A DNA stretch of 64,000 bases, taken from contig QCFU01000003.1 in NCBI GenBank assembly GCA_003278305.1, forward strand, positions 1 to 64,000, written 5' to 3'. The DNA is from Prochlorococcus sp. AG-363-M21. Lineage in GTDB: Bacteria; Cyanobacteriota; Cyanobacteriia; PCC-6307; Cyanobiaceae. Of this stretch, positions 4,631 through 16,483 are shown piece after piece. Each line of letters begins with the position of its first letter. The stretch's first letter is position 1. A program made the position numbers and the translations under genes. The notes beneath the pieces are model-generated. The model did no database searches. It saw nothing but the letters and a program-made list of their open reading frames with translations, and was not told where the DNA came from.

Positions 4631-4828
4631 GTGGCATTGAGAATGAATCCCTTCCTGGCGCTGATCCTTCCTCTATTAATTCTTGGATTCATTTACATCC
4701 TGATCATCGACAACAAAGGGCTTCCTCCATGGATGGAAAGACTATCGGATAACAGTGGGACTATCTGGACATACGGAGTCATTACGATCACTGTTTTATC
4801 AATCTGGAAATACTGGAGCAATAGTTAG
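4631..4828 (+). CDS. Small membrane protein, 65 aa
   Basis: Two hydrophobic helices make up most of the protein: about residues 6-26 (PFLALILPLLILGFIYILII) and 46-61 (IWTYGVITITVLSIW), separated by a polar loop. GTG at 4631 is used here; ATG at 4643 would remove four residues and is equally possible, as neither has a clear Shine-Dalgarno sequence. The stop codon abuts the ATG of the next ORF, so the two are probably one transcript. I recognise no family. It is cargo between EVE copies A and B. Confidence 0.65.
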   Translation: MALRMNPFLALILPLLILGFIYILIIDNKGLPPWMERLSDNSGTIWTYGVITITVLSIWKYWSNS

Positions 4829-4993
4829 ATGACTCTTAGTCCTCATCGACAACACAAAATTTATATCGCAGCAACTATGGGATATGGTCTTGGTTCAGAA
4901 GATCCAGAAGAAGTTGCTTATTACAAGCAGATTAAAGAAGAGATGAAAGACGATCGAGACAACGGAAATCTAGGAATATCAAGATCTGACTAA
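4829..4993 (+). CDS. Small hypothetical protein, 54 aa
   Basis: The ATG follows the preceding TAG without a gap. The product is hydrophilic, with an acidic and then lysine/aspartate-rich second half (GSEDPEEVAYYKQIKEEMKD). No family is recognised. About 15 bases after its stop the sequence joins EVE 5'-repeat copy B. Confidence 0.55.
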   Translation: MTLSPHRQHKIYIAATMGYGLGSEDPEEVAYYKQIKEEMKDDRDNGNLGISRSD

Positions 4994-5007
4994 AACTTTT
5001 CTTGACT

Positions 5008-5154
5008 TAAGAGATAATAGAAGCAACCAAGAGTGAATTAGATCAAGAGGCTCATTCACGATCCATTCACGGAAAGCAATTTCGCTGAGAACCCATGGCA
5101 TCACAGGAACCTAACTACTGGATCATGAAGTATGAGCCTTATTTGAGACAGTAG
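5008..5154 (+). repeat. EVE 5'-repeat copy B with a 19-codon remnant
   Basis: From GAGATAATAGAAGCAACC to about 5139 this is close to identical with copy E (13801-13931), including the type II leader with CATTCACGATCCATTCACGG. The ORF at 5095-5154 reads MASQEPNYWIMKYEPYLRQ and stops. The first 15 residues match the intact EVE protein at 16007 with few changes. Similarity to the full gene ends just after the GAGCCT codons. Confidence 0.85.
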
Positions 5155-5175
5155 TAATAGAAAGGGTTTATGCAT

Positions 5176-5799
5176 TTAAAAAGCGATGACCAAAAAACCT
5201 CCATCTAATTTTCTCAACCAACCAGTTTTCTTCAGTTGAGACAATATCCTTGTAATGGTTACACGCGTTAGTCCTACTGCATTAGCAATATCTTGATGAG
5301 TGATCGAGAAATCAATCATCAAGCCCTCTTCCACTGGCTTACCAAAATCAGTAGCTATCAATTCAAGGAATGCTTTAACCCTTTCTTCGCCAGTCTTGCT
5401 TAAGAGAATAGCCAAATTTAATTGTGTAGAACGATGGCGTAATGAGAGCGACTCCAAAATTGCCAAGGCCAAAGGTGGAGAATTAGATATTTCTTCAGAA
5501 GTGAAGTGTAGTAATTCACAATCAACCAAAGCAAATGGACTGCAGTCGTCAATCAAAGAAAACGCTTCTCCAAACACCTGATTTGGCCCCACAAAACCGA
5601 GAATTGATTCATCCCCATCACTTCTTGGCGCACGTAATTTAATTAATCCTTTAACAACAATCCAGATCTTGCCTTTAAACCAAGGAATATAATTTCCTTT
5701 GGAAATATGAACAATATTCTTTCTAGCAAAACTAGTTTCCAAAAATCTTGACAATCCGTCTAAAACCTTTGGTGAAACCGTGCAATTAGCTGCAGTCAC
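5176..5799 (-). CDS. ptrA: CRP/FNR-family transcription regulator (PtrA-like)
   Basis: This is a 207-aa CRP-type regulator. The N-terminal half is a cyclic-nucleotide-binding-like beta barrel (IWIVVKGLIKLRAPRSDGDES, then FGEAFSLIDD). The C-terminal winged helix-turn-helix covers about residues 165-195 (ITHQDIANAVGLTRVTITRILSQLKKTGWL). Picocyanobacterial genomes carry such a gene, ptrA, next to pstS and related phosphate genes, and the pstS gene here lies 350 bases away. The effector is unknown. An ATCAA-N6-TTGAT palindrome lies 38 bases upstream of its start, in the divergent promoter region. NtcA is an alternative member of the family, but context favours PtrA. Confidence 0.75.
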   Translation of the reverse strand: MTAANCTVSPKVLDGLSRFLETSFARKNIVHISKGNYIPWFKGKIWIVVKGLIKLRAPRSDGDESILGFVGPNQVFGEAFSLIDDCSPFALVDCELLHFTSEEISNSPPLALAILESLSLRHRSTQLNLAILLSKTGEERVKAFLELIATDFGKPVEEGLMIDFSITHQDIANAVGLTRVTITRILSQLKKTGWLRKLDGGFLVIAF

Positions 5800-5836
5800 A
5801 TTTTACTGATTAATCACACAAACAATGTAGCACTAA

Positions 5837-5852
5837 ATCAAGAATAGTTGAT
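5837..5852. promoter_or_regulatory. ATCAA-N6-TTGAT palindrome between ptrA and small ORF
   Basis: ATCAA-GAATAG-TTGAT matches the two tandem sites in the arsR-gap gap base for base in its arms. It abuts a TATAAT -10 candidate at 5852-5857, so a bound protein would block that promoter. The binding protein is unproven: ArsR is the simplest candidate, and the adjacent CRP-family regulator is the alternative. Confidence 0.5.
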
Positions 5853-5857
5853 ATAAT
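5852..5857 (+). promoter_or_regulatory. -10 element for the 58-aa ORF
   Basis: A perfect TATAAT lies about 20 bases before the proposed TTG start at 5879. No good TTGACA is present at -35, which is common in this group. Confidence 0.4.
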
Positions 5858-5878
5858 AAATGCCCACGCATTGCCTCA

Positions 5879-6055
5879 TTGGAAGAGTCTGATCGGTTAC
5901 TACATCAAGCTGCGGAACTTACAGAAACTCTCGACGCAGTTGTGCGTGATTTCTGTGATGCACAAAGGGTTAGTGGTGAAGTCGCCTGGCAATTAATTCA
6001 GGGATTAAGTGACATAAGACTCGAGCGTCTAAGGGGTGAAAGCAGCTCTGAGTGA
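5879..6055 (+). CDS. Small conserved-looking protein, 58 aa, upstream of pstS
   Basis: The frame is open for 59 codons and encodes an acidic amphipathic protein (EESDRLLHQAAELTETLDAV, then VSGEVAWQLIQGLSDIRLER). It has no membrane segment or signal peptide and looks like one or two helices. No ATG or GTG is available; TTG at 5879 is the best start, with ATT at 5870 as an alternative. It lies between ptrA (divergent) and pstS (same strand). I do not recognise the family. Confidence 0.55.
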   Translation: MEESDRLLHQAAELTETLDAVVRDFCDAQRVSGEVAWQLIQGLSDIRLERLRGESSSE

Positions 6056-6086
6056 CGACCTTCCATCATCGTTTTATAGTTTTTAA

Positions 6087-6102
6087 ATCAAGAAAAATTG
6101 AT
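6087..6102. promoter_or_regulatory. ATCAA-N6-TTGAT palindrome upstream of pstS
   Basis: AATCAA-GAAAAA-TTGATT has 6-bp arms containing the same ATCAA/TTGAT core as the arsR operator sites. It lies 50 to 66 bases before the pstS start. No clear tandem Pho box is visible in the same gap. Confidence 0.5.
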
Positions 6103-6152
6103 TAAAGCAACTCTTTTTGATTAATATATGAATGCAATCTTTGCTGTTTGTT

Positions 6153-7142
6153 ATGTCCTTCTCAAAGAAGGCTTTTGCTTTTATCTCACTTGCCGCTCTT
6201 GGCGCTGGTCTTGTTGCCTGTGGATCAAACAACTCTACTTCTGGAGTCAGGTTAAGTGGCGCTGGTGCTAGCTTCCCTGCCAAAATCTACACACGCTGGT
6301 TCTCTGACCTGGATAAAGAGGGTGGTCCTAGAGTGAACTATCAAGCTGTTGGTTCTGGTTCTGGACGAAAAGCTTTCATTGATGAAACAGTTGACTTTGG
6401 AGCGTCTGACGATCCAATGAAAGCCAAAGATATTGGCAAAGTTACACGTGGGTTAGTTCAAATCCCAATGGTGGGAGGCACCATTGCATTTGGCTATAAC
6501 TACGATTGTGACCTCAGGCTTACACAAGAACAAGCAGTTCGTATCGCCATGGGCAAAATCACGGACTGGAGCCAAGTTGGTTGTCCTGCTGGAAAATTAA
6601 CTTGGGCGCATCGTTCTGATGGATCTGGGACAACAAAAGCTTTTACCAATTCCATGCAAGCTTTTTCAAAAGAATGGACTTTAGGGACAGGTAAATCCGT
6701 AGCATGGCCTGTAGGTATTGGAGGGAAAGGTAATGCAGGGGTTGCTGGTCTTATTAGAAAGACACCTGGCACAATTGGCTATGTAAATCAGTCTTATATC
6801 CAAGGAGATGTCAAAGCCGCTGCTTTGCAAAATTTGTCTGGTGAGTTTTTAAAGCCAAGCACCGAAGCTGGTGCAAAGGCTCTAAATGGTATCAACTTGG
6901 ATCAAAACCTCGCAGGGAAGAACCCTAATCCAACGGCTAAAGGGGCATATCCAATTGCTACTTTAACTTGGATCCTTGCTTATGAAACTGGTAATGGCTC
7001 TAAAACAAAAGCCATACAAGAATCACTAAACTATCTTCTTAGTGATAAGGCCCAATCTAAAGCTCCTGACTTAGGGTTTGTTCCTCTGAAAGGGGAAATT
7101 CTGAACAAAGCTCGTTCAGCCGTCAAAAGAATTGGAAAGTAA
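6153..7142 (+). CDS. pstS: Phosphate-binding protein PstS
   Basis: This is the periplasmic phosphate-binding protein of the Pst ABC transporter. A lipoprotein-type signal (MSFSKKAFAFISLAALGAG) ends in the lipobox LVAC, with the cysteine at residue 23. The mature part shows LSGAGASFPAKIYTRWF, VNYQAVGSGSGRKAFI and RSDGSGTTKAFT, the phosphate-contacting loops of the family. An upstream in-frame ATG at 6132 would add seven hydrophobic residues; 6153 gives the better signal peptide. The permease genes pstC, pstA and pstB are not in the window. A strong terminator follows. Confidence 0.92.
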   Translation: MSFSKKAFAFISLAALGAGLVACGSNNSTSGVRLSGAGASFPAKIYTRWFSDLDKEGGPRVNYQAVGSGSGRKAFIDETVDFGASDDPMKAKDIGKVTRGLVQIPMVGGTIAFGYNYDCDLRLTQEQAVRIAMGKITDWSQVGCPAGKLTWAHRSDGSGTTKAFTNSMQAFSKEWTLGTGKSVAWPVGIGGKGNAGVAGLIRKTPGTIGYVNQSYIQGDVKAAALQNLSGEFLKPSTEAGAKALNGINLDQNLAGKNPNPTAKGAYPIATLTWILAYETGNGSKTKAIQESLNYLLSDKAQSKAPDLGFVPLKGEILNKARSAVKRIGK

Positions 7143-7168
7143 CTATCAACTTAAGAGTTTAAGAAAAG

Positions 7169-7194
7169 GAGGGGCTTGAACCCCTCTTTTTTTT
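7169..7194. terminator. Terminator between pstS and arsJ
   Basis: GAGGGG-CTTGAA-CCCCTC is followed by eight T on the plus strand and preceded by AAAA, so it can serve pstS and, less strongly, the convergent arsJ transcript. Confidence 0.9.
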
Positions 7195-7207
7195 GTCAAT
7201 AATTAAT

Positions 7208-8482
7208 TTAGGCTTGTGCAGAATCCTTTTCAAAAAAGTCAGGGTTATTTGTAGAAGGAAGCTCAAGACTGGTCAACCATGAGAAGAATACGAACAAACT
7301 TGAACACCATAAACAAACTTGCATTCCCATAGAGGCATTTGTCCCTAGCATAAATAAGACACCAGATAAGAGCGTACCAATCAGTCTCCCTGCCGCATTT
7401 GCCATGTAATAGAAGCCCACATTTAGACTTACGTTTTCCTTATCCGTATATGCAAGAACCATATATGAATGTATCGATGAGTTCATTGCAAAAATGAATC
7501 CAAATATTATTAATCCAACTGTAATTGCTATTTCTGGATTGCTTTGTCGCCATAGTGCTATAGCTATTAGAGCTGGTATTGCAGTTAAGACAGCGCTCCA
7601 GAATTGAACAGAAGAAACCCCTGGGCTTCTTTTATTTCCCCATAAATTTCTTAAAGACGGCGCAAACGCTTGGATAAAGCCATAACCAATAACCCACAAT
7701 CCTAGGAACGCTCCAATCTCAGAAAAATTCCAATTTAGATACGTTTCAAGAAAAACAGGTAATGCCACAACGAACCATACGTCTCTTGCCCCAAAGAGAA
7801 AAAAGCGTGCAAAAGAGAGGACATTGATCCCTTGAGATTTAGAAAATAAGTCTTTGAAGATTGGTTTGCTTTTCATCTTCCCAATGTCTCCAGGCAAAAT
7901 TAATGTCAATAAAAACGAAACACCTAAACCGATTGCCATTAATGCAACTGCTGTATTAAAACCAAAACTGGTCAGCAAAAGTCCACCAAGAAAAAAGCCA
8001 ACTCCTTTGAGTGCATTTTTTGAACCAGTTAAGATAGCAACCCATTTGAACAATTGATTATTTCCACCATCTTCTTCAGGGGAATCTGGAACGACAGTTT
8101 TGATTGCACTTTTGGCACTCATCTTATTGAGATCTTTTGCTATACCACTAATCGCTTGAGCAACCATGACATAAATGACACTCAAAAGTTTCGACCAACT
8201 ACTCGAAACTGGTATCAACATCAATAAGGCCACTATTTGTAAAAGAGTCCCGACCCATAGTGTTAGACGTAATCCATATCTTGCTCCAATCCATCCACCA
8301 TAGAGATTAGTGACGATGCCAAAGAACTCGTAAAAAAGGAATAAGAATGCGATTTCTAAGGTTGTATATCCAAGGCTATGAAAGTGAAAAATCACTAGCA
8401 TCCTTAGAGCACCATCTGTAAGTGTGAATGCCCAATAGTTGGTCGTTACGATTCCATATTGCTGTAATGACGATAATCTCAT
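7208..8482 (-). CDS. arsJ: ArsJ-type MFS exporter of arseno-phosphoglycerate
   Basis: This is a 424-aa major facilitator protein with about 12 membrane helices. The N-terminus (YGIVTTNYWAFTLTDGALRM, then LVIFHFHSLGYTTLEIAFLF and YEFFGIVTNLYGGWIGAR) is typical of ArsJ. ArsJ is known to export 1-arseno-3-phosphoglycerate, the unstable product that GAPDH makes from arsenate. The gene for such a GAPDH is directly upstream, 10 bases away on the same strand, and arsR is divergent. A generic MFS transporter is unlikely given this pairing. Confidence 0.85.
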   Translation of the reverse strand: MRLSSLQQYGIVTTNYWAFTLTDGALRMLVIFHFHSLGYTTLEIAFLFLFYEFFGIVTNLYGGWIGARYGLRLTLWVGTLLQIVALLMLIPVSSSWSKLLSVIYVMVAQAISGIAKDLNKMSAKSAIKTVVPDSPEEDGGNNQLFKWVAILTGSKNALKGVGFFLGGLLLTSFGFNTAVALMAIGLGVSFLLTLILPGDIGKMKSKPIFKDLFSKSQGINVLSFARFFLFGARDVWFVVALPVFLETYLNWNFSEIGAFLGLWVIGYGFIQAFAPSLRNLWGNKRSPGVSSVQFWSAVLTAIPALIAIALWRQSNPEIAITVGLIIFGFIFAMNSSIHSYMVLAYTDKENVSLNVGFYYMANAAGRLIGTLLSGVLFMLGTNASMGMQVCLWCSSLFVFFSWLTSLELPSTNNPDFFEKDSAQA

Positions 8483-8492
8483 GCTTTTATTT

Positions 8493-9518
8493 TTATTCTT
8501 TTTCTAGCTTTATTACATGTGACACCAGATCAGCCATCCGACAGCTATACCCCCATTCATTGTCATACCAAATATAAACTTTAAGTTGAGTTTTGTTGAC
8601 CACCATGGTTGAGAGAGCATCAATAATTGAACTCCTGGAGTCATTGACATAATCAATAGAGACAAGTGGTTTTTCTTCGTAACCGAGTATTCCTTTTAGC
8701 TCTCCTTCTGAAGCTTCTTTGAACACATGATTGACTTCTTCTTGCGTTACCTCTTTCTCTAATTCAAATACAGCATCAGTTAAAGATCCATTGAGGAGAG
8801 GAACTCGAACTGCATGGCCATTTAATTTGCCTTGTAATTCTGGGAAAATCATCCCTATCGCTTTTGCTGAGCCTGTTGTTGTTGGTATTAAACTTTGTGA
8901 TCCACTTCTGGCTCTTCTTAAGTCTGGCTTAAATGAATCAACTATGACTTGTGTATTTGTTAGGTCATGGAGAGTTGTAATGCTTCCATGCTTAATACCA
9001 AAGGCTTGATTAACGACCTTTACAACTGGAGCTAAACAATTAGTCGTGCAGGATGCAGCAGTTATTAAGCGATGTTTATTTGGTTTATATAAATCGTGGT
9101 TAATACCGTAGACGATATTCAGAGCATCCTCTCCCTGGATTTCACCTTTAACAGGACATGCAACGACAACTCTTTTCATCCCTAAAGTATCGAAATATGG
9201 ATTTAACGTTTGAGGAGATTTGAATTTTCCTGAGCATTCGAGAATTAGCTCTATCCCTGTCTCATCCCATTGAACTTTTGTGAAATCGCTTTCTTGTGAA
9301 AAAGATATTGAGTGCCCTTCTATAGATAGTTTGTTCTGGTCGGAACTTATTAATTTATCCCATCGGCCGTGAACAGAATCAAACTCCAGTAAATGTGCAG
9401 CCCCCTTTGCATCCCCGAATGAGTCATTGATATGTGTAATCTCGATATTTTCTCTATCCCAGAGAGCTCTAAGAACAAGTCGCCCTATACGACCAAACCC
9501 ATTAATACCAATGCGCAT
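8493..9518 (-). CDS. gap: Glyceraldehyde-3-phosphate dehydrogenase, arsenic-linked
   Basis: This is a full-length GAPDH with the Rossmann start [19 protein letters not shown], the active-site SCTTNC (Cys157) and the catalytic His184 in TLHDLTNTQ. The C-terminal [12 protein letters not shown] is the usual signature. The start at 9518 is chosen because the family begins at MRIGINGFG; two ATGs up to 9542 would add eight residues. GAPDHs paired with arsJ accept arsenate and make 1-arseno-3-phosphoglycerate for export. A purely glycolytic role is possible, but the operon with arsJ and the ArsR-type operators upstream favour arsenate detoxification. Confidence 0.88.
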
Positions 9519-9549
9519 AAAACTCCGCATGACAAAATGCATGTATAGT

Positions 9550-9587
9550 ATATATCAAGAATTATTGATATATCAATCTCTGTTGAT
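9550..9587. promoter_or_regulatory. Tandem ArsR-type operator between gap and arsR
   Basis: Two ATCAA-N6-TTGAT palindromes sit 18 bases apart (9554-9569 and 9572-9587). The first has perfect 9-bp arms (ATATATCAA and TTGATATAT). They fill the divergent region between gap-arsJ and arsR. Inverted repeats of this form are known operators of ArsR-family repressors. Dimers on the two sites would lie on nearly the same DNA face region, about 1.7 turns apart. Confidence 0.75.
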
Positions 9588-9637
9588 AGCTGTGGCAATT
9601 CTTGTAAAATTACAACATTACTCTGGCTGACTAATTA

Positions 9638-9949
9638 ATGAGTACAGGTGTCGCCAATAAAAAAGCAATAGATTCACTCAAAGCCTTAGCAGAACCTATC
9701 AGATTGGAAATAATTGAATCCTTGTCCAGTGGGGAAAAATGTGTTTGTGACCTTATGCAAGAGACAGGTTTAGCGCAATCCAAAATTTCTTTTCACCTCA
9801 AGGTTCTTAAAGACGCTGGGGTTATCACGGATAGGCAAAGTGGCCGCTGGGTATATTACCAACTCGATATAAGAACATTAAAGTCTTTGCAGAATTGGAT
9901 CAAAAAACTAAGAAAAGGGTGCCTGAATGAAGCGTCTACTTGTGAATAA
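9638..9949 (+). CDS. arsR: ArsR-family arsenic-responsive repressor
   Basis: This 103-aa winged helix-turn-helix protein has the ArsR/SmtB fold: LKALAEPIRLEIIESLSSGE, recognition helix AQSKISFHLKVLKDAGVI, and wing DRQSGRWVYYQL. It carries the arsenic-binding CVCD motif (C35, C37); further cysteines at 95 and 102 could complete a thiol site. Such proteins leave DNA when arsenite or antimonite binds. The gene is divergent from gap-arsJ, with the tandem operator between them. Confidence 0.88.
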   Translation: MSTGVANKKAIDSLKALAEPIRLEIIESLSSGEKCVCDLMQETGLAQSKISFHLKVLKDAGVITDRQSGRWVYYQLDIRTLKSLQNWIKKLRKGCLNEASTCE

Positions 9950-10082
9950 ATCACAAGGCATTGCGAATGACCAATGACCTAGTGCTTCACATGCCCCCGC
10001 GCTAAATCAATGCAGGATTAAGAATTAAGGTAAAGATGAATCCAACTTCTAATTCATATTACCTTCAAATTCTAATTAGATA

Positions 10083-10239
10083 GAGTAAAGAAAAGAGATG
10101 GAAGAATGAGGTTTCATTCCAACTCCATTCCAACCATCAAGTATCGCTAAGATTACAGACTATGACTGAACCTAACTACTGGATCATGAAGAGTGATCCT
10201 GATGTCAATAATTCTCAAAAAACTAGTTATACCAATTGA
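10083..10239 (+). repeat. EVE 5'-repeat copy C with a 25-codon leader ORF
   Basis: This copy is more diverged in its leader (GAATGAGG...CCAACCATCAAGTATCGCTAAGA) but keeps ACCTAACTACTGGATCATGAAGAG. The ORF 10162-10239 reads MTEPNYWIMKSDPDVNNSQK and five more residues. It ends four bases before the ATG of the nuclease gene, so it could serve as a translated leader for the nuclease-pilin pair. Confidence 0.8.
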
Positions 10240-10242
10240 TCT

Positions 10243-10653
10243 ATGCCATTTCTGCCTTATTTCTCTTTGAAAAGAATATCAATTATACCAATATTTTTAA
10301 TATTAATAGGGTGCTCAAAGCCTCTAATTAAAGAGAGTGTGGTTATTCAAGATTGCTATGACGGAGATACTTGCACCACAATCACAGGAGAGAAGGTCAG
10401 GCTTGCTTGCATCGATACTCCAGAACTCAAAGGAAAGGAAGCTGATCCAATCCCAGCCAAAGCAGCCAGAGACTATCTCAATGGTTTAGTTGCAGGAGAA
10501 ACTCTCGACATTCGACGCATTACTAAAGACCGCTACGGAAGAACAGTGGCAGAACTTTCCAAAGACGGAATGAATATTCAAGAGCGTCTCGTTACAGTAG
10601 GCCTAGCGAAGGTCTACAAGAAATATGCAAATCAATGTCCTTGGATTCAATGA
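10243..10653 (+). CDS. Secreted staphylococcal-nuclease-like lipoprotein
   Basis: This 136-aa protein has an N-terminal signal ending in the lipobox LIGC (cysteine at residue 24), so it is probably anchored outside the cytoplasmic membrane. The rest is one SNase fold: DCYDGDTCTT, VRLACIDTPELKG and KDRYGRTVAEL carry the calcium and catalytic Asp, Arg and Glu residues. Such enzymes cleave DNA and RNA and can help use extracellular nucleic acid. It overlaps the following pilin gene by 19 bases and follows EVE leader copy C. Confidence 0.82.
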   Translation: MPFLPYFSLKRISIIPIFLILIGCSKPLIKESVVIQDCYDGDTCTTITGEKVRLACIDTPELKGKEADPIPAKAARDYLNGLVAGETLDIRRITKDRYGRTVAELSKDGMNIQERLVTVGLAKVYKKYANQCPWIQ

Positions 10654-11195
10654 TAGTTAATTCAATTCAACAAAAAACATGGCGATCTCTTCAAGAAAAG
10701 GAAGAAGGATTTACTTTGGTGGAGCTAATAATTGTGGTTGTCATCATTGGGATACTCTCAGCAATAGCTATACCAAGCTTTCAAAATTCATCAGACAAAG
10801 CCAAGCAAAAGGAAGTGGCAATATTAATATCAAGTTATATAAAAGCGGCCCAAGCTTATAAAGCTGAATATGGAGGAAGTCTGTTTTATACAAATCAACT
10901 TGGCAATTATGTAAGCATAAGCGGTTGCCAAAATAACAACCCTGCTTTTTGCAGAGCCAATCAACCCATTGATTACACCCATGCACACCAAATTGACATG
11001 TGGTATTCACCAAGTGGTTTGTTCAAATTAAGAATTGATGGCGGAAGCTCTACAATTAATATTCGTGCAATCCCAGACGGCAGCTATTCAAATACTGGTT
11101 ATGGGGTCGCTGGTTGCTACAACCCAATGACTGGAATCACCAAAGTTATTAATATGACTTCTAAGGGAACTAGAGTTCCTATAGCCAATTGTTAA
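10635..11195 (+). CDS. Type IV pilin-like protein
   Basis: This 186-aa prepilin has a 25-residue leader ending in KEEG, followed by FTLVELIIVVVIIGILSAIA, the standard prepilin peptidase site and hydrophobic helix with Glu5 of the mature form. The globular part has two cysteines near residue 90-100 and a C-terminal cysteine, suggesting disulfide bonds. ATG at 10650 (ATGA overlap with the nuclease stop) is an alternative start giving a 20-residue leader. No pilus assembly genes are nearby, so it would use machinery encoded elsewhere. Its stop is directly followed by EVE copy D. Confidence 0.85.
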   Translation: MSLDSMIVNSIQQKTWRSLQEKEEGFTLVELIIVVVIIGILSAIAIPSFQNSSDKAKQKEVAILISSYIKAAQAYKAEYGGSLFYTNQLGNYVSISGCQNNNPAFCRANQPIDYTHAHQIDMWYSPSGLFKLRIDGGSSTINIRAIPDGSYSNTGYGVAGCYNPMTGITKVINMTSKGTRVPIANC

Positions 11196-11204
11196 TTAGA
11201 TAGA

Positions 11205-11449
11205 TTCAAGACATGAGGGAGAGAATGTTAATCCATCCACACACCATCCACACATCGCAATATCGCTGAGAACCCATGGCATCACAAGAACCTAACTATT
11301 GGATCATGAAGAGTGAGCCTGATGCATATTCAATTACTGACCTAAAAAAAGAGGTAGAAACATTATGGGATGGAATCAGAAATTATCAGGCACGAAACTT
11401 TATGAGATCAATGGAAATAGGTGACAAAGCTTTTTTTTATAGCTTTTAA
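11205..11449 (+). pseudogene. EVE 5'-repeat copy D: truncated EVE gene, 57 codons
   Basis: The leader is type I, like copy A. The ORF at 11276-11449 matches the first 55 residues of the intact EVE protein closely: MASQEPNYWIMKSEPDAYS, then VETLWDGIRNYQARNFMRSM and IGDKAFFY. It then runs into SF and a stop where the intact gene continues HSNCKPPG. It is the longest of the partial copies and would encode only the first third of the domain, so function as an EVE protein is unlikely. Confidence 0.85.
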
Positions 11450-11524
11450 TATATTTTTAAGTCTATATAGTGAATAATTTATTAATTTAGAGAAAACTCT
11501 AGAAATTGAATTAATGAAGTTCAT

Positions 11525-13546
11525 TTAGTTTACTTTTTTAGAGCTATAAATAAAATCTCTTAATATCGGACCAATTATATCTACTGTATTCTCATTCAGA
11601 TGGTCATCATCTTGATATAGTCTGACGCCATTTGAATCATGAGTAGAACAAACTCCATCTTTGCATAATATAGGAATCAAATCAAACAACCTTATGTTGT
11701 CTGAGCTTACAGCTAACTCTTTAAGTGACTTAGTTATATGAGATACTCTGGCTTGAGTTGTATTTAAATCCATTACTCCCGGTATTTCATAATTCATGCA
11801 TGTGTCGTAATAAGCGGCAGGATATTTACTGTTGGAAATATCAAACCACTGTTTTTCACTGCAGCTTCCTAATGGCTTTCCACCTGCATTAACCCAATCA
11901 AACTCTGGAGTTGGTAAAACTATTATAAAATCTACATTTTTCAACGCCATAGCAGTTTCCTTGATATTATTAATATAACTTTTGAGAGCCCTATTATAAT
12001 CTACTTTAGAGCCATCAATATCATAATAATCAGACACTTTCCAATCATAACTTGGTAATATTGATTTAGGATCTGCAAAGAATCCAGCCCAATAAGTACT
12101 TAAGATTACCCTCTTCAAAGGTTCTTTATTAGCTTGTTCTATAAAGTTTGAAGGGTTTTCTAAATTAACTTTCCTAATTGCCAAACCTTTATTAGTTCCA
12201 ATTATCTTACTATTAAATAGAAAAGAATATGAGACTGAATTTTTTTCTTTTTTCCTTACAACTTTGCAGTCACCATCTGTTGCATAATATGTAATATTTG
12301 AGAAGTATCCTGTATGACTATCTCCAACAATCCATGTTGATGATAATTCTTTGGAACATGTCTCCTTTTTATACTTTGAGTAGTTTATCTTCTTGCCTAG
12401 ATATAATTTATCCATATAAATTTTCCCATAAGTTGTAGGATAAGATGTCGAAAATAATATCAAAAATGTAGACAAAAAAAGTACTATTGGTTTATTTATA
12501 TTCTTTGTATTTCTGAAAGGTTCCTCTATCCAGTAATAAGATAAAGAAGAACACAAATAGATAACTCCTAATTGCAGAGGTAAAGTCCAAGATTGAATAC
12601 CAATTGTCCAGTTACTTATAGATAAAATTCCCCAATGCCATAGATATAATGAATAAGATATAAGGCCTATATGCCTAATACCTTTTTGTACCAAAAGTTT
12701 ATAGACCCCACTTTCTTCTTGGATGCATACGATAAGAAGCATGGTAAGAATCACAATTGAAATTGTTGACTGTACAGCCCATGAGTTAGGCAAAGTCATT
12801 ACAGAAATAATTCCAATGCCTATAAAAAATGGTTTTATACCATCTAAGCCTTGCTTAATTTTCAAATATTTATTTACTATTAAATAAGCAAGACAACCTG
12901 CAGATATTTCCCATAGCCTAGATGGCATTAAAAAGTATGCAGCTGGTTGATTAGTTTGATACAAATATATAAACAAACACAATGACAGGCTTGTAAAAAA
13001 TAGAAGGGTTATAAGAAAATTTCTAGAAGCATTATTCCTCTTTTGTCCAAAACCAGAAAACCAAATTAAAAAAGGGTACAAGAAGTAAAACTGTTCTTCA
13101 ACTCCTAAAGACCAGGTATGTGTAAAAGGATTTAAAACAGTTGAAGTTGAGAAATAATTTGTTGATTGTTTTAATAAATAGAAATTAGATAAACCTATAA
13201 GTGATGCAAAACCAGTTCTTAAAGAAATGATCGGATCAGGATTAAAAAGGCAAATACAAATACTAAGGCTAAAGACAAAAAAAGTAATTGTAGGTAACAG
13301 TCTTTTAACTCTCCGGGTATAGAAGTTAGTTATGAAATGTCCCAATGAGTGATATTCTCTTTTAGCTAATGAGGATGTAATTACATATCCTGAAATTACA
13401 AAAAATATATCCACCCCAAGATATCCACTGGGAAGAATATCTTTGCTAAAGTGGTTAATAATAACTGCTATTACCGCAAAACCCCTTAAACCATCTATTT
13501 CAGGCCTGTAATTTGATTTTCTTTGGCCTGATACAGCACTTTGCAT
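11525..13546 (-). CDS. Membrane O-acyltransferase (OafA-type) with SGNH domain
   Basis: This 673-aa protein has an acyltransferase-3 N-terminal half with about ten membrane helices, starting YRPEIDGLRGFAVIAVIINH and GYLGVDIFFVISGYVI, with the motif NPFTHTWSLGVEEQFYFLYP. The C-terminal part from about residue 395 is a periplasmic SGNH hydrolase-like domain with WIVGDSHTGY (Ser nucleophile) and DDDHLNE (Asp/His). Such proteins O-acetylate lipopolysaccharide O-antigen or other surface sugars. Base composition is even more AT-rich than its neighbours, and it is cargo between EVE copies D and E, typical of surface-variation islands. Confidence 0.85.
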   Translation of the reverse strand: MQSAVSGQRKSNYRPEIDGLRGFAVIAVIINHFSKDILPSGYLGVDIFFVISGYVITSSLAKREYHSLGHFITNFYTRRVKRLLPTITFFVFSLSICICLFNPDPIISLRTGFASLIGLSNFYLLKQSTNYFSTSTVLNPFTHTWSLGVEEQFYFLYPFLIWFSGFGQKRNNASRNFLITLLFFTSLSLCLFIYLYQTNQPAAYFLMPSRLWEISAGCLAYLIVNKYLKIKQGLDGIKPFFIGIGIISVMTLPNSWAVQSTISIVILTMLLIVCIQEESGVYKLLVQKGIRHIGLISYSLYLWHWGILSISNWTIGIQSWTLPLQLGVIYLCSSLSYYWIEEPFRNTKNINKPIVLFLSTFLILFSTSYPTTYGKIYMDKLYLGKKINYSKYKKETCSKELSSTWIVGDSHTGYFSNITYYATDGDCKVVRKKEKNSVSYSFLFNSKIIGTNKGLAIRKVNLENPSNFIEQANKEPLKRVILSTYWAGFFADPKSILPSYDWKVSDYYDIDGSKVDYNRALKSYINNIKETAMALKNVDFIIVLPTPEFDWVNAGGKPLGSCSEKQWFDISNSKYPAAYYDTCMNYEIPGVMDLNTTQARVSHITKSLKELAVSSDNIRLFDLIPILCKDGVCSTHDSNGVRLYQDDDHLNENTVDIIGPILRDFIYSSKKVN

Positions 13547-13616
13547 GAATTAATGCTATTTGAATTATCTGATAATAAAACTAGATCGTGAATTAAAAAA
13601 ACAATTAGATAATATA

Positions 13617-13632
13617 ATTTATTCGAATAAAT
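13617..13632. repeat. 16-bp perfect palindrome
   Basis: ATTTATTCGAATAAAT is a perfect palindrome. Its first 12 bases recur at 4564-4575, again upstream of the CATATAAG promoter-like repeat. It may mark one edge of the repeated unit or be a terminator-like structure or protein site for the small minus-strand ORF. Confidence 0.4.
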
Positions 13633-13665
13633 GGGCAGAGTAAACCACTTTGTCTAAGTCATATA

Positions 13666-13800
13666 TCAGTTTTCTAGAATTTGATTTCTAATTTCATTGG
13701 TTTCTTCTTTTAGTTTGTCGCAAGCACCTTTAACTTGCATCCATACCGCTTCCATTACTTCACGTTCTTCTTCTGAAGGTTTCCATTTAGGTGTTTCCAT
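13666..13800 (-). CDS. Small acidic protein, 44 aa, divergent from EVE copy E
   Basis: The ORF starts METPKWKPSEEEREVMEAVW and continues as one charged, probably helical protein. A second copy at 15808-15910, also divergent from an EVE start, keeps the sequence but has a frameshift and a stop, which supports this one as a real former or present gene. The start lies within the shared promoter-like repeat, so the two genes would be divergently transcribed. No family is recognised. Confidence 0.55.
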   Translation of the reverse strand: METPKWKPSEEEREVMEAVWMQVKGACDKLKEETNEIRNQILEN

Positions 13801-13975
13801 ATAAGAGATAATAGAAGCAACCAAGAGTGAATTAGATCGATAAGCTCATTCACGATCCATTCACGGAAAGTAATTTCGCTGAAACCCCATGGCATCACAA
13901 GAACCTAACTACTGGATCATGAAAAGTGAGCATTCAGTTATATCAATGGATCTAAACCAATTACAATTAAGGTAA
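13794..13975 (+). repeat. EVE 5'-repeat copy E with a 28-codon remnant
   Basis: TTTCCATATAAGAGATAATA and the type II leader are shared with copy B over about 130 bases. The ORF 13889-13975 reads MASQEPNYWIMKSEHSVISM and eight more residues before TAA. The following GTAACTAGCAAG (13972-13983) recurs at 15976-15987, just before the intact EVE gene. Confidence 0.85.
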
Positions 13976-14003
13976 CTAGCAAGAAGATAGATAAGGGGTA
14001 GAG

Positions 14004-14040
14004 AAGTCAGGGTTCGAACCTGCGACCTAGTGCTCCCAAA
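14004..14040 (-). tRNA. tRNA-Pro 3' fragment 1 (remnant, att-like)
   Basis: Read on the minus strand, the fragment begins in the anticodon loop (TTTGGGA), then GCACT-AGGTC and the T-arm GCAGGTTCGAACCCTG. The acceptor end is degraded. No 5' half is present, so this is not a functional tRNA. A break in the anticodon loop is typical of tyrosine-recombinase attachment sites. It pairs as a direct repeat with the fragment at 14996. Confidence 0.7.
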
Positions 14041-14068
14041 ACAGTTTGCTATTTGACATTATGGATAC

Positions 14069-14746
14069 ATGAAGCACTTATCACTTCCACAAAACAAACT
14101 TGCTCGACTTCTCATCAACATTAGCTTTGTTGTTGTTTGGAGTGATTGTGCAATGTTTATATGGAGAATGATGATATTCCGAGTAGGCGGCTTTCATTCT
14201 GAGACGCCTTTCTTCAATTTTTTTTCAGCTCTTTGGGTTTTCAGTCCACCAATAATAGAAAACTTTCATGCCTTCACTAGCTATCTTTTAATTCTTTTTA
14301 TCCCAATATCATTAGCAACTAGATATATCTGGTGGCAGAAAGTTTTCGGGTTTAATAAAAAAATTATTCTTTATGGTGGAGCTGGGTTGATTTTCATGAT
14401 CATCTCAGGTCCATTGCGTATTCGCCAACTGATTTGGAAATGCAGTAGAGGAGATATCGCTTATTCAAGATGTAAGAAAGAGGACAAACTCTTTGATTAC
14501 TTAAACAAAGTGAGGTATGAAAAAGAACGACAAATAATAAATATCTCTCAGATAAAAGCATGTGAGAGATATATCAAAAGCCAATTATTAGATCCAAGAA
14601 CCTACAAGAGGAATAATTCCATCTATTCGATAAAGCGATCAGGGTTAATTGACTACACCACATTGAATAAATACGGTGGTCCAAGTCGTCAAGTCTTAGA
14701 CTGCCATAAGGGTTGGGGAAAATTTAATAGAATGATGGACAAATGA
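14069..14746 (+). CDS. Hypothetical membrane protein, 225 aa
   Basis: I recognise no family. Hydrophobic helices lie at about residues 12-33, 50-56, 64-82 and 98-113, followed by a basic cytoplasmic or periplasmic domain rich in lysine, arginine and tyrosine with four cysteines. The N-terminus is positively charged (MKHLSLPQNKLARLL). The gene lies between the two tRNA-Pro fragments and overlaps the next small gene (ATGA). It looks like cargo of a small integrative element. Confidence 0.6.
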   Translation: MKHLSLPQNKLARLLINISFVVVWSDCAMFIWRMMIFRVGGFHSETPFFNFFSALWVFSPPIIENFHAFTSYLLILFIPISLATRYIWWQKVFGFNKKIILYGGAGLIFMIISGPLRIRQLIWKCSRGDIAYSRCKKEDKLFDYLNKVRYEKERQIINISQIKACERYIKSQLLDPRTYKRNNSIYSIKRSGLIDYTTLNKYGGPSRQVLDCHKGWGKFNRMMDK

Positions 14747-14904
14747 TTCCTTTATTCGCAACGTCTCCACAAGCCAACCTCCTATGGGTTTTAGGCGGTG
14801 GATTCGTCTTACTTGGTAGTTATTTCTTTGGACGCTTGGTTACATTCTTCTTTCCCAACAACCCATTAGTGAGGAAGGGTAAGAAGGAAGAAACAGGGGT
14901 ATAG
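14743..14904 (+). CDS. Small membrane protein, 53 aa
   Basis: The ATG overlaps the stop of the preceding gene (ATGA), suggesting translational coupling. One hydrophobic helix spans about residues 11-38 (ANLLWVLGGGFVLLGSYFFG), followed by a basic tail (RKGKKEE). No family is recognised. Confidence 0.6.
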   Translation: MIPLFATSPQANLLWVLGGGFVLLGSYFFGRLVTFFFPNNPLVRKGKKEETGV

Positions 14905-14995
14905 CAAGGGTTTCGGCAGAAACCCAGTAGAGAACGCTAGACAAAATTGTCCTCTTTTCGTCCTCCTTAGTTTTTCAGCATTGCTGAGATCCCAG

Positions 14996-15037
14996 TCGGG
15001 GCGACAGGATTCGAACCTGCGACCTAGTTCTCCCAAA
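14996..15037 (-). tRNA. tRNA-Pro 3' fragment 2 (remnant, att-like)
   Basis: On the minus strand it runs from the anticodon loop TTTGGGA through GAACT-AGGTC, the T-arm GCAGGTTCGAATCCTGT and the acceptor CGCCCCG with discriminator A. These are the 3' features of tRNA-Pro(UGG). The 5' half is missing: upstream sequence (GCATTCACTTTTGC) does not fold with it. It is a likely attachment-site remnant and a direct repeat of the fragment at 14004. Confidence 0.75.
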
Positions 15038-15087
15038 GCAAAAGTGAATGCCAATCGATGCATATAAAACAAACTAGGTGAAGTGCA

Positions 15088-15672
15088 TTATCTAAATTGC
15101 ATCAAATTGTCAGCAAAGTTCTGCCTGGATTGTTTAATATCATTCGCCTTTAAATTATTTACATGAGTTTTATCCATACAATCACCTTTGTAATAAGCTT
15201 GTCCAGGGATCTCACATCTTGGATCAACTATATATTCTCTAACCGCAACATTCTCAATTATTTTCATAAAATTCATAGCATCTTTCTCCTTACCAAAAAG
15301 TATTAAACCTTCACCTTTTGACTGATCTTTTCTTGCATAGGATATTAAGAATTCATATTGATTTTTTTGGCAAAAAAATATTTGGCCTGTGGAGCATGTT
15401 GAAGCAATCTCTTCATAAGTAAAACTTTTAATCTTATTGAATTTTACTGAATTAGTCCCATTAATAATTATTCGATCAGCAGCAAATTCAACTGTGCAAT
15501 TATCTCCTCTTTCCCCACACCATGCATCAAATCTCTTGCTATTATTATTTGTATCTGCTGGGCCAAAATCAGCTTTTATTTTAACAGGTTGAGTCAAGTC
15601 AATAGAAGAGACAGTAGCTAAGGCAGCAAGAAAACTAAATATAAAAAAACGCATTTGACGCAAAATTTTCAA
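15088..15672 (-). CDS. Secreted hypothetical protein, 194 aa
   Basis: A probable signal peptide (MRFFIFSFLAALATVSS, from the second methionine at residue 7) is followed by a soluble domain with seven cysteines, several in close pairs (WCGERGDNC, TCSTGQIFFC, RCEIPG...GDC), consistent with disulfide bonds in the periplasm. No catalytic motif is seen and no family is recognised. The start at 15672 could be replaced by the ATG at 15654. Confidence 0.6.
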   Translation of the reverse strand: MKILRQMRFFIFSFLAALATVSSIDLTQPVKIKADFGPADTNNNSKRFDAWCGERGDNCTVEFAADRIIINGTNSVKFNKIKSFTYEEIASTCSTGQIFFCQKNQYEFLISYARKDQSKGEGLILFGKEKDAMNFMKIIENVAVREYIVDPRCEIPGQAYYKGDCMDKTHVNNLKANDIKQSRQNFADNLMQFR

Positions 15673-15807
15673 GAGTAAGATTAATCTAATTCATCTAAAA
15701 ATAGTAAAAAGATACCTTTAACTTAACCTGATCAAGGTATGACCAGGAAAAATAATGACCGTAATCCATGCTAGAAGAATCTTCTTAATGTGTTCGTCTT
15801 GAGCATG

Positions 15808-15910
15808 CGTCTCTTCGTTTAGTTTCTGGCATGCACCTTTAACTTACATCCAAACAGCTTCCATTACTTCTCTGTCTTCTTCTGAAGGGTTCCCACTTAG
15901 ATGCTTCCAT
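15808..15910 (-). pseudogene. Decayed second copy of the 44-aa acidic ORF
   Basis: The minus strand reads MEASKWEP, then needs a one-base shift to continue PSEEDREVMEAVWM, where TAA replaces the CAA codon of the copy at 13666. The order (this ORF, CATATGAGAGATAATAGAA, EVE start) is the same as at copy E, so the whole divergent unit was duplicated and this half has decayed. Confidence 0.65.
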
Positions 15911-16006
15911 ATGAGAGATAATAGAAAGTATTAAAAGCTTGTAAGCGATCTTGCAATTGTCCTAGTGACTAGCAAGTAACTAGCAAGCTGTTTTCGCTGA
16001 GATCCC

Positions 16007-16483
16007 ATGGCATCAAAGGAACCTAACTACTGGCTAATGAAAAGTGAGCCTGATGCATACTCAATTAGTGACTTAAGAAATGAGGCGGAAACCATATGGG
16101 ATGGAATTAGGAACTACCAAGCAAGGAATTTTATGAGATCGATGAAAATAGGTGACAAAGCTTTCTTCTATCATTCCAATTGCAAGCCCCCAGGAATTGT
16201 TGGCCTAATGGAAGTAATAGAAACTAAAATCACAGATCCTACTCAATTTGAAAAATCTTCAAAATATTTTGATCCAAAATCTTTGAAAGACAAACCAAGA
16301 TGGGACTGCGCAAAATTGAAATATTTAGGGCAATTTAAGGAAAAACTAACTCTTGAAGAAATACGAAAAGAATTCAATTCAGATGAATTAGTTTTAGTAA
16401 GGAGTGGAAACAGATTATCTATTATCCCTGTAGAAGCAAATGTTGCATATAGGCTTTTTAATTTACTTGGTGATGCAAACTAA
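16007..16483 (+). CDS. EVE-domain protein, intact copy F
   Basis: This 158-aa protein is a complete EVE (PUA-like) domain: NYWLMKSEPDAYSISDL, WDGIRNYQARNFMRSMKIGD, AFFYHSNCKPPGIVGLMEV and, near the end, VLVRSGNRLSIIPV. EVE proteins bind modified bases in DNA or RNA, and in other bacteria they join restriction or defence systems. The cellular role in cyanobacteria is not known. The leader contains GAGATAATAGAA at about 15914 and TTTTCGCTGAGATCCC directly before ATG. Five partial copies of this gene's 5' end lie upstream on the same strand. Confidence 0.9.
   Translation: MASKEPNYWLMKSEPDAYSISDLRNEAETIWDGIRNYQARNFMRSMKIGDKAFFYHSNCKPPGIVGLMEVIETKITDPTQFEKSSKYFDPKSLKDKPRWDCAKLKYLGQFKEKLTLEEIRKEFNSDELVLVRSGNRLSIIPVEANVAYRLFNLLGDAN

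Follow-up and report, generated by a model that had tools for sequence, protein, structure and literature searches.

Two fragments of a tRNA-Pro gene enclose a 1-kb pair of genes in the DNA analyzed here, and sequence comparison supports reading both as attachment-site scars of a tyrosine-recombinase system. The window, by which we mean the whole stretch analyzed, comprises bases 1 to 64,000 of contig 3 in an assembly of 1.16 Mb that is spread over 26 contigs and is about 70% complete; its gene content points to a marine picocyanobacterium. In our best explanation, which we consider quite probable, the tRNA-Pro halves were left by rounds of integration by a tyrosine integrase, and the 1-kb unit was carried secondarily into a hotspot at the start of a gene for an EVE-domain protein. 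Comparison among genomes lends support to these elements of the account: the linkage of an integrase family to the tRNA-Pro core, breaks that fall at the anticodon loop or at EVE gene starts, and differing cargo at one site.

Identity and cargo of the two tRNA-Pro fragments

Both fragments lie on the minus strand and start in the anticodon loop, as an earlier note on this DNA had stated. Copy A (14008..14040) is a displaced 3' half of tRNA-Pro(UGG) that runs from the anticodon loop to the T-arm with 32/33 identity to the tRNA-Pro of relatives; its sequence departs from tRNA-Pro ahead of the acceptor end, which is unrecognizable. Copy B (14995..15040) is likewise a displaced 3' half of tRNA-Pro(UGG), with 45/46 identity, and reaches the 3' end of the gene. 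The description of both as 3' halves with a T-arm therefore holds for the T-arm of each copy and fails for the acceptor end of copy A; the loss of that end could mean that copy A predates copy B or has undergone alteration. The cores of the two copies are direct repeats that match at 33 of 36 positions, and 997 bp separate them.

Scored against the 17 tRNAs of this genome, the best rival to tRNA-Pro was tRNA-Asn, with 31 for copy A and 37 for copy B versus 61 and 87 for tRNA-Pro. A 15-base T-arm pattern allowing up to 2 mismatches had 2 matches in the window versus a shuffle mean of 0.04, and a 23-base T-arm pattern allowing up to 3 mismatches also had 2, versus a mean of 0 across 100 shuffles. 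Chance similarity as the source of the fragments was ruled out by these shuffles and match scores, and a better alignment to some non-tRNA sequence, an outcome for which the earlier note had allowed, did not emerge, tRNA-Pro being the best match. A cellular origin is also favored. It is very improbable that the halves stem from a tRNA-Pro gene carried by a phage and are unrelated to integration: cyanophage tRNA-Pro genes match 47 to 48 bases of copy B at 89 to 94%, but the cellular tRNA-Pro of relatives fits better (45/46 and 32/33), and displaced halves in other genomes share with both copies the cut at this edge of the anticodon loop. We rejected a phage tRNA origin on the better cellular match and on the integrase linkage presented below.

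ARAGORN detected no intact tRNA in the 64-kb window, and the 17 tRNAs identified in the 1.16-Mb assembly do not include tRNA-Pro; at about 70% completeness, this does not imply its absence from the real genome. Within the window and the assembly, the earlier observation that no intact tRNA-Pro lies nearby is thus correct. Rfam returned nothing at gathering score for the window and chance matches only below it.

The only frames between copies A and B are a 225-aa gene (14069..14746, plus strand) and a 53-aa gene (14743..14904, plus strand). Of 300 genomes, 6 others encode a match to the first ~91 residues of the 225-aa protein, whereas the 53-aa protein has relatives in 46, one of which directly adjoins an intact tRNA-Pro in genome G220. 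A 194-aa gene (15088..15672, minus strand) lies outside copy B, within the same segment bounded by EVE gene starts, and recurs in 20 other genomes of the 300. Family libraries assigned none of the three proteins to a family, the single Pfam match having an E value of 0.084. The two enclosed genes had been described as membrane genes between the fragments; their position is as described, and hydrophobic 19-residue windows over threshold bear out the membrane label for the 225-aa protein, whereas the 53-aa protein has 0 such windows, which makes the label weak for it. A scan of genome contigs for the 225-aa protein and one of viral contigs for the 53-aa protein confirmed no relative. No integrase gene or relic was present between or beside the two copies.

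The two genes differ in how they relate to tRNA-Pro. For relatives of the 225-aa N-terminal part, a tRNA-Pro core lies no more than 2 kb away in 4 of the 6 other genomes (G001, G003, G013, and G044), and none was found in the 20 and 16 kb of DNA surrounding those in G108 and G220, respectively. The 53-aa gene does not appear to be tied to the tRNA-Pro system, since a core lay within the examined flank at only 3 of the 29 other loci checked. That search listed matches with up to 7 mismatches; because a shuffled control gave one match at 7 mismatches, a match at 6 mismatches in that search (L111) and one at 8 mismatches in another (L198) were counted as chance.

Junctions in other genomes place the break at the anticodon loop. 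Window positions 14723-15040, which hold the 53-aa gene, a spacer, and copy B, align to G220 at 72.5% over 324 columns, and the homology ends at 15040; beyond that end, G220 completes an intact tRNA-Pro with its 5' half. Related DNA is hence joined to a complete tRNA in G220 and to unrelated DNA in the window, with the break at the anticodon loop. A second example comes from other genomes: a 107-aa frame belongs to a unit that adjoins an intact tRNA-Pro in G020 (L069) and trails a displaced half in G015 (L062).

The tRNA-Pro core and its adjoining integrase

The core of the tRNA-Pro halves recurs across the bacterial family. It was found in 29 of the 40 genomes searched as relatives, and a 28-base core with up to 3 mismatches, intact genes and halves being pooled, gave 591 copies in 300 family genomes, with at least one copy in 217, at least two in 128, at least three in 72, and 18 in one. 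At the loci of relatives, the core stands either inside an intact tRNA-Pro or after unrelated sequence, and the switch point is the anticodon loop. Among the matches listed, neighboring cores on one contig and up to 50 kb apart formed 40 same-strand and 4 opposite-strand pairs, and same-strand spacings were 3 kb or less in 21 of 43, a count that takes in the pair from the window and a single genome of the 40-relative search. The 1-kb interval in the window resembles the small units that are common between cores.

Five frames adjoining displaced halves in G005 (two), G006, G018, and G024 encode related proteins with about 28 to 52% pairwise identity over the aligned parts. Their alignment, A1, has invariant residues consistent with R, R, H, and Y, the catalytic residues of tyrosine recombinases. 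The five-sequence A1 profile matched 279 of the 300 genomes at an E value of 1e-10 or better, the weaker matches among which may be other recombinases, and it had no match in the assembly of the present genome. Testable integrases numbered 52 among the matches listed, all from the 72 genomes whose core places were listed in full. For 43 of the 52, a core lay 119 to 364 bp from the 5' end, divergent in 43/43; without the profile seeds (3 of the 52), the count is 40 of 49. The other 9 of the 52 had no core on their contig.

The same layout occurs on viral contigs. At 14 viral-contig loci with an integrase relative, an exact core was found in 6 and stood beside the integrase in the same layout in 5. 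This linkage of integrase and core, in chromosomes and viral contigs alike, indicates that the core is an attachment site of the A1 integrase family and that it serves chromosomal elements and at least one phage-like genome. What began as a suspected att pair can thus be tested as a system in which a tRNA-Pro integrase family has an adjoining core in chromosomes and viral contigs.

Viral contig L199 carries, at about 4762-6102, a tRNA-Pro core beside an A1-family integrase in the layout expected of attP. The contig also encodes a sigma factor, terminase, portal, and major head proteins.

The EVE gene start and the place of the unit

The window contains 5 EVE-start cores, all on the plus strand, and a complete gene follows only the last of them. 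The intact EVE-domain gene (16007..16483, core 16025; Pfam EVE E value, 9e-54) bounds the unit-bearing segment on the right, and a truncated EVE gene start recognized as a sequence repeat (13841..13931, core 13907) bounds it on the left. A third copy, also a sequence repeat, is a 57-codon truncated EVE frame (11193..11449, core 11294), and the remaining two (core 5113; and 10073..10204, core 10174) mark the left and right edges of an exchanged block. Relatives have similar sets, with 10 cores in 40 kb in G005, 6 in G108, 3 in G002, and 3 in G012, none reversed within a locus. The EVE core pattern, a strict one for a protein-coding site, was matched in 106 of the 300 genomes. Variable cargo is flanked by these repeats of the EVE start while the EVE gene itself remains whole.

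The exchanged block, 5063..10193, is bounded by the EVE starts at 5113 and 10174, and its genes are presumably a transporter, a GAPDH-like gene, and an ArsR-like gene. When alignments of at least 120 bases were listed, the block was 98.5% identical to G002, versus 70.7% for the DNA beyond the EVE gene; the corresponding figures for G012 were 93.7% (over 5063-10203) and 68.7%. In G001, DNA like that ending at core 10174 (94% over 152 bp) runs on into the intact EVE gene. These identities, the position of both ends in EVE starts, and the continuation in G001 together indicate that segments have been exchanged with breaks at the EVE start. The proposal that two insertion mechanisms share the island is upheld to this extent: the EVE gene start is a second kind of site, bounding exchanged DNA, and the comparisons support the presence of two kinds of site in one island. 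It is a protein-gene hotspot at which cargo appears to have been swapped at 94 to 98% identity where neighboring core DNA is at about 70%, and such exchange is relevant to trait acquisition by streamlined ocean bacteria.

EVE-start arrays (window 10073-16483, and loci L093, L097, and L099-L101) have different cargo after each start and two alternating kinds of upstream sequence. Contig 18 of this genome bears two more EVE-start cores, at 909-933 and 4858-4882, perhaps an array that continues past the start of the window.

How segments might move at the EVE start bears on how the unit came to be there. Homologous recombination, in which repeats of about 100 to 200 bp (EVE starts and tRNA halves) exchange cargo between the island DNA of different cells, is a doubtful account of the movement of the unit. 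EVE repeats within the window do have as much as 178 bp in common at 84%, repeats of this kind form the ends of the exchanged block, and no recombinase was found at EVE loci in the part of the frames scanned: PF00589, which missed one known A1 integrase, had 0 matches at the EVE locus in 14 genomes and 0 among 10 cargo proteins. Yet several EVE copies have only 26 to 37 bp in common with the intact start, which is short for such exchange; tRNA-Pro breaks coincide with one edge of a core that is a few dozen bases long and adjoins an integrase; and the origin of the repeats themselves is left unexplained by this account.

The unit seems to lie away from the tRNA-Pro locus. A gene that we take to be gpmI starts 4 kb beyond the EVE gene, and in relatives this gpmI-like gene and tRNA-Pro are distant from each other, near 1489 versus 467 kb in G005 and near 1443 versus 562 kb in G012; in G001 and G002, which belong to the same genus, they are on separate contigs. 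Unless this genome was rearranged, the unit is therefore not at tRNA-Pro, and with that caution we rejected the window as an ordinary tRNA-Pro locus, the home locus being elsewhere in relatives. The small gene upstream of the G001 tRNA-Pro was not found in this genome, a result that, lacking a positive control, says little.

Content at this place varies. With edges taken from tblastn matches, the distance from the ArsR-like gene to the EVE gene measures about 6.06 kb in the window, 6.07 kb in G002, 1.57 kb in G012, 0.13 kb in G003, and 0.12 kb in G014, these being the 5 genomes, window included, measurable at both edges. The fragment pair with this cargo occurred in none of the 15 relatives examined at the EVE/gpmI locus; the conserved pair without cargo variation that would have refuted the reading of the earlier note was accordingly not what we observed. 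A genome in which the flanks of the unit are joined and the unit is missing was not found. In the ArsR-EVE region, the window has two tRNA-Pro halves, G018 has one (4 mismatches, L106:8044), and the other loci examined there have none. In G005, near 1537 kb and beyond the stretch examined, two halves lie 582 bp apart with EVE cores on both sides.

Such halves are pertinent to a different route, by which the unit integrated directly: a 3' half already present in the EVE island would have served as a secondary attachment site, the two fragments would be the ends of the insertion, and the integrase would have been lost later. The direct-repeat arrangement of the fragments (cores matching at 33/36) agrees with this, and the halves in or near the EVE islands of G005 and G018 indicate that halves can preexist there. 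We nevertheless judge it unlikely, as neither fragment has an integrase gene or relic by it, copy A is without its 3' end, and no genome was found that has just one half here without cargo.

Proposed mechanism and likeness to known systems

We favor secondary carriage of the unit, after formation of the halves by integrase. An A1-type tyrosine integrase would recombine tRNA-Pro(UGG) at the anticodon loop and displace 3' halves: at the tRNA-Pro, the incoming copy would restore the tRNA while the old 3' half would be shifted downstream, and successive rounds would yield a one-orientation array of halves with cargo between them, an expectation for which the support is comparative rather than experimental. 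Some units measure only about 0.4 to 3 kb and have little room beyond an integrase, and those without one would be either trans-mobilized or remnants of larger elements; the 1-kb gene pair of the window would be one such small unit. Its simplest route here would be as passenger of the EVE-bounded segment 13907-16025. Each EVE-bounded segment would have come with an EVE upstream region and start of its own, which kept the EVE gene intact while older starts were left behind. Rearrangement within this genome could be an alternative way of placing the unit here.

Islands that target tRNA genes leave a displaced tRNA 3' end as a scar and encode a tyrosine integrase, as outlined in the available text on Islander (PMC4383910). 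The system proposed here is like these Islander-type islands, so far as that text describes them, in the displaced tRNA 3' end cut at a fixed sublocation, the tyrosine integrase, and the restored tRNA at the home locus of relatives. The window pair differs from that description in having two displaced halves, no integrase between them, and a site that is not a tRNA gene. Feature by feature, the unit has the fragment cut at a fixed sublocation and has neither a restored intact tRNA nor an integrase (no A1 profile or PF00589 match). In a strict attL/attR pair, one member would be a tRNA restored intact, whereas both copies here are displaced halves.

Tycheposons use one of seven tRNAs. In the description available, they measure 4 to 200 kb and have a flanking tRNA and a recombinase (PMC10872708). 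As islands of marine picocyanobacteria with a tRNA and a tyrosine recombinase, they resemble the present case; compared by that description, the window unit differs in being 1 kb long and without flanking tRNA or recombinase (PMC10872708), and we do not class it as a tycheposon because the size and recombinase features given in that source are lacking. Where the earlier note had seen the att marks of a tyrosine-recombinase element such as a tycheposon, the att scars stand, and a single self-mobile tycheposon is not supported (no integrase, 1 kb, and not at a tRNA gene).

Other islands offer partial parallels, each as its source outlines it in the text available. The tRNA-Met island of MIT9313 has five pseudo-tRNA-Met and five 36-bp copies that match the att site of the temperate cyanophage P-SS2 (PMC2784084); it is alike in being a picocyanobacterial island with repeated partial tRNAs and different in that the tRNA is tRNA-Met and the copies are near the tRNA itself, whereas here they derive from tRNA-Pro and lie away from it. 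A picocyanobacterial tyrosine integrase marks variable islands near tRNA-Phe or tRNA-Cys (preprint PMC10187409), and, compared with A1 by description alone, it is alike as an island-marking tyrosine integrase that uses other tRNAs. Islands associated with dusA integrate into a protein-coding gene at its 5' end (PMC4482086), as we propose for the EVE site; they have a dedicated integrase, and none was found at EVE among the frames scanned.

We recognized no paper on tRNA-Pro halves or EVE starts as picocyanobacterial insertion sites in a literature judged mostly without full text, and no priority is claimed. A repeated tRNA-Pro end in Prochlorococcus islands is said to have been reported before. 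The nesting of two site types in one island and the presence of tRNA scars away from any tRNA may be new, although earlier island work may cover part of this.

Relatives of window genes 6132-9949 sit in a tRNA-Pro array in G018, which suggests that cargo passes between EVE and tRNA-Pro places. A more ambitious and quite tentative extension would posit two linked cassette systems, integron-like tRNA-Pro arrays with a tyrosine integrase and EVE arrays with a putative recombinase, with cargo passing between them and across genera. On the tRNA-Pro side, units of 0.4 to 3 kb without their own integrase would each end in a 3' tRNA half; on the EVE side, the putative recombinase would use a site of about 25 nt at the 5' end of the coding sequence, and every segment would leave an EVE start. 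The cargo would comprise genes of metal-handling type, a nuclease, and small exported proteins, and would extend even to tRNA-Pro scars. The integron cassette array, with IntI, folded attC, and an attI platform, is only an analogy for small cassettes; in the present system, tRNA-Pro halves form the sites.

Copy number and arrangement of tRNA-Pro stand out in a few genomes. Genomes G302, G131, G205, and G193 of genus g17 have 12 to 18 tRNA-Pro cores each, far above the rest of the family, and G001 (L050:6702-7894) has two intact tRNA-Pro genes in tandem, 1.1 kb apart, with a 258-aa frame between them.
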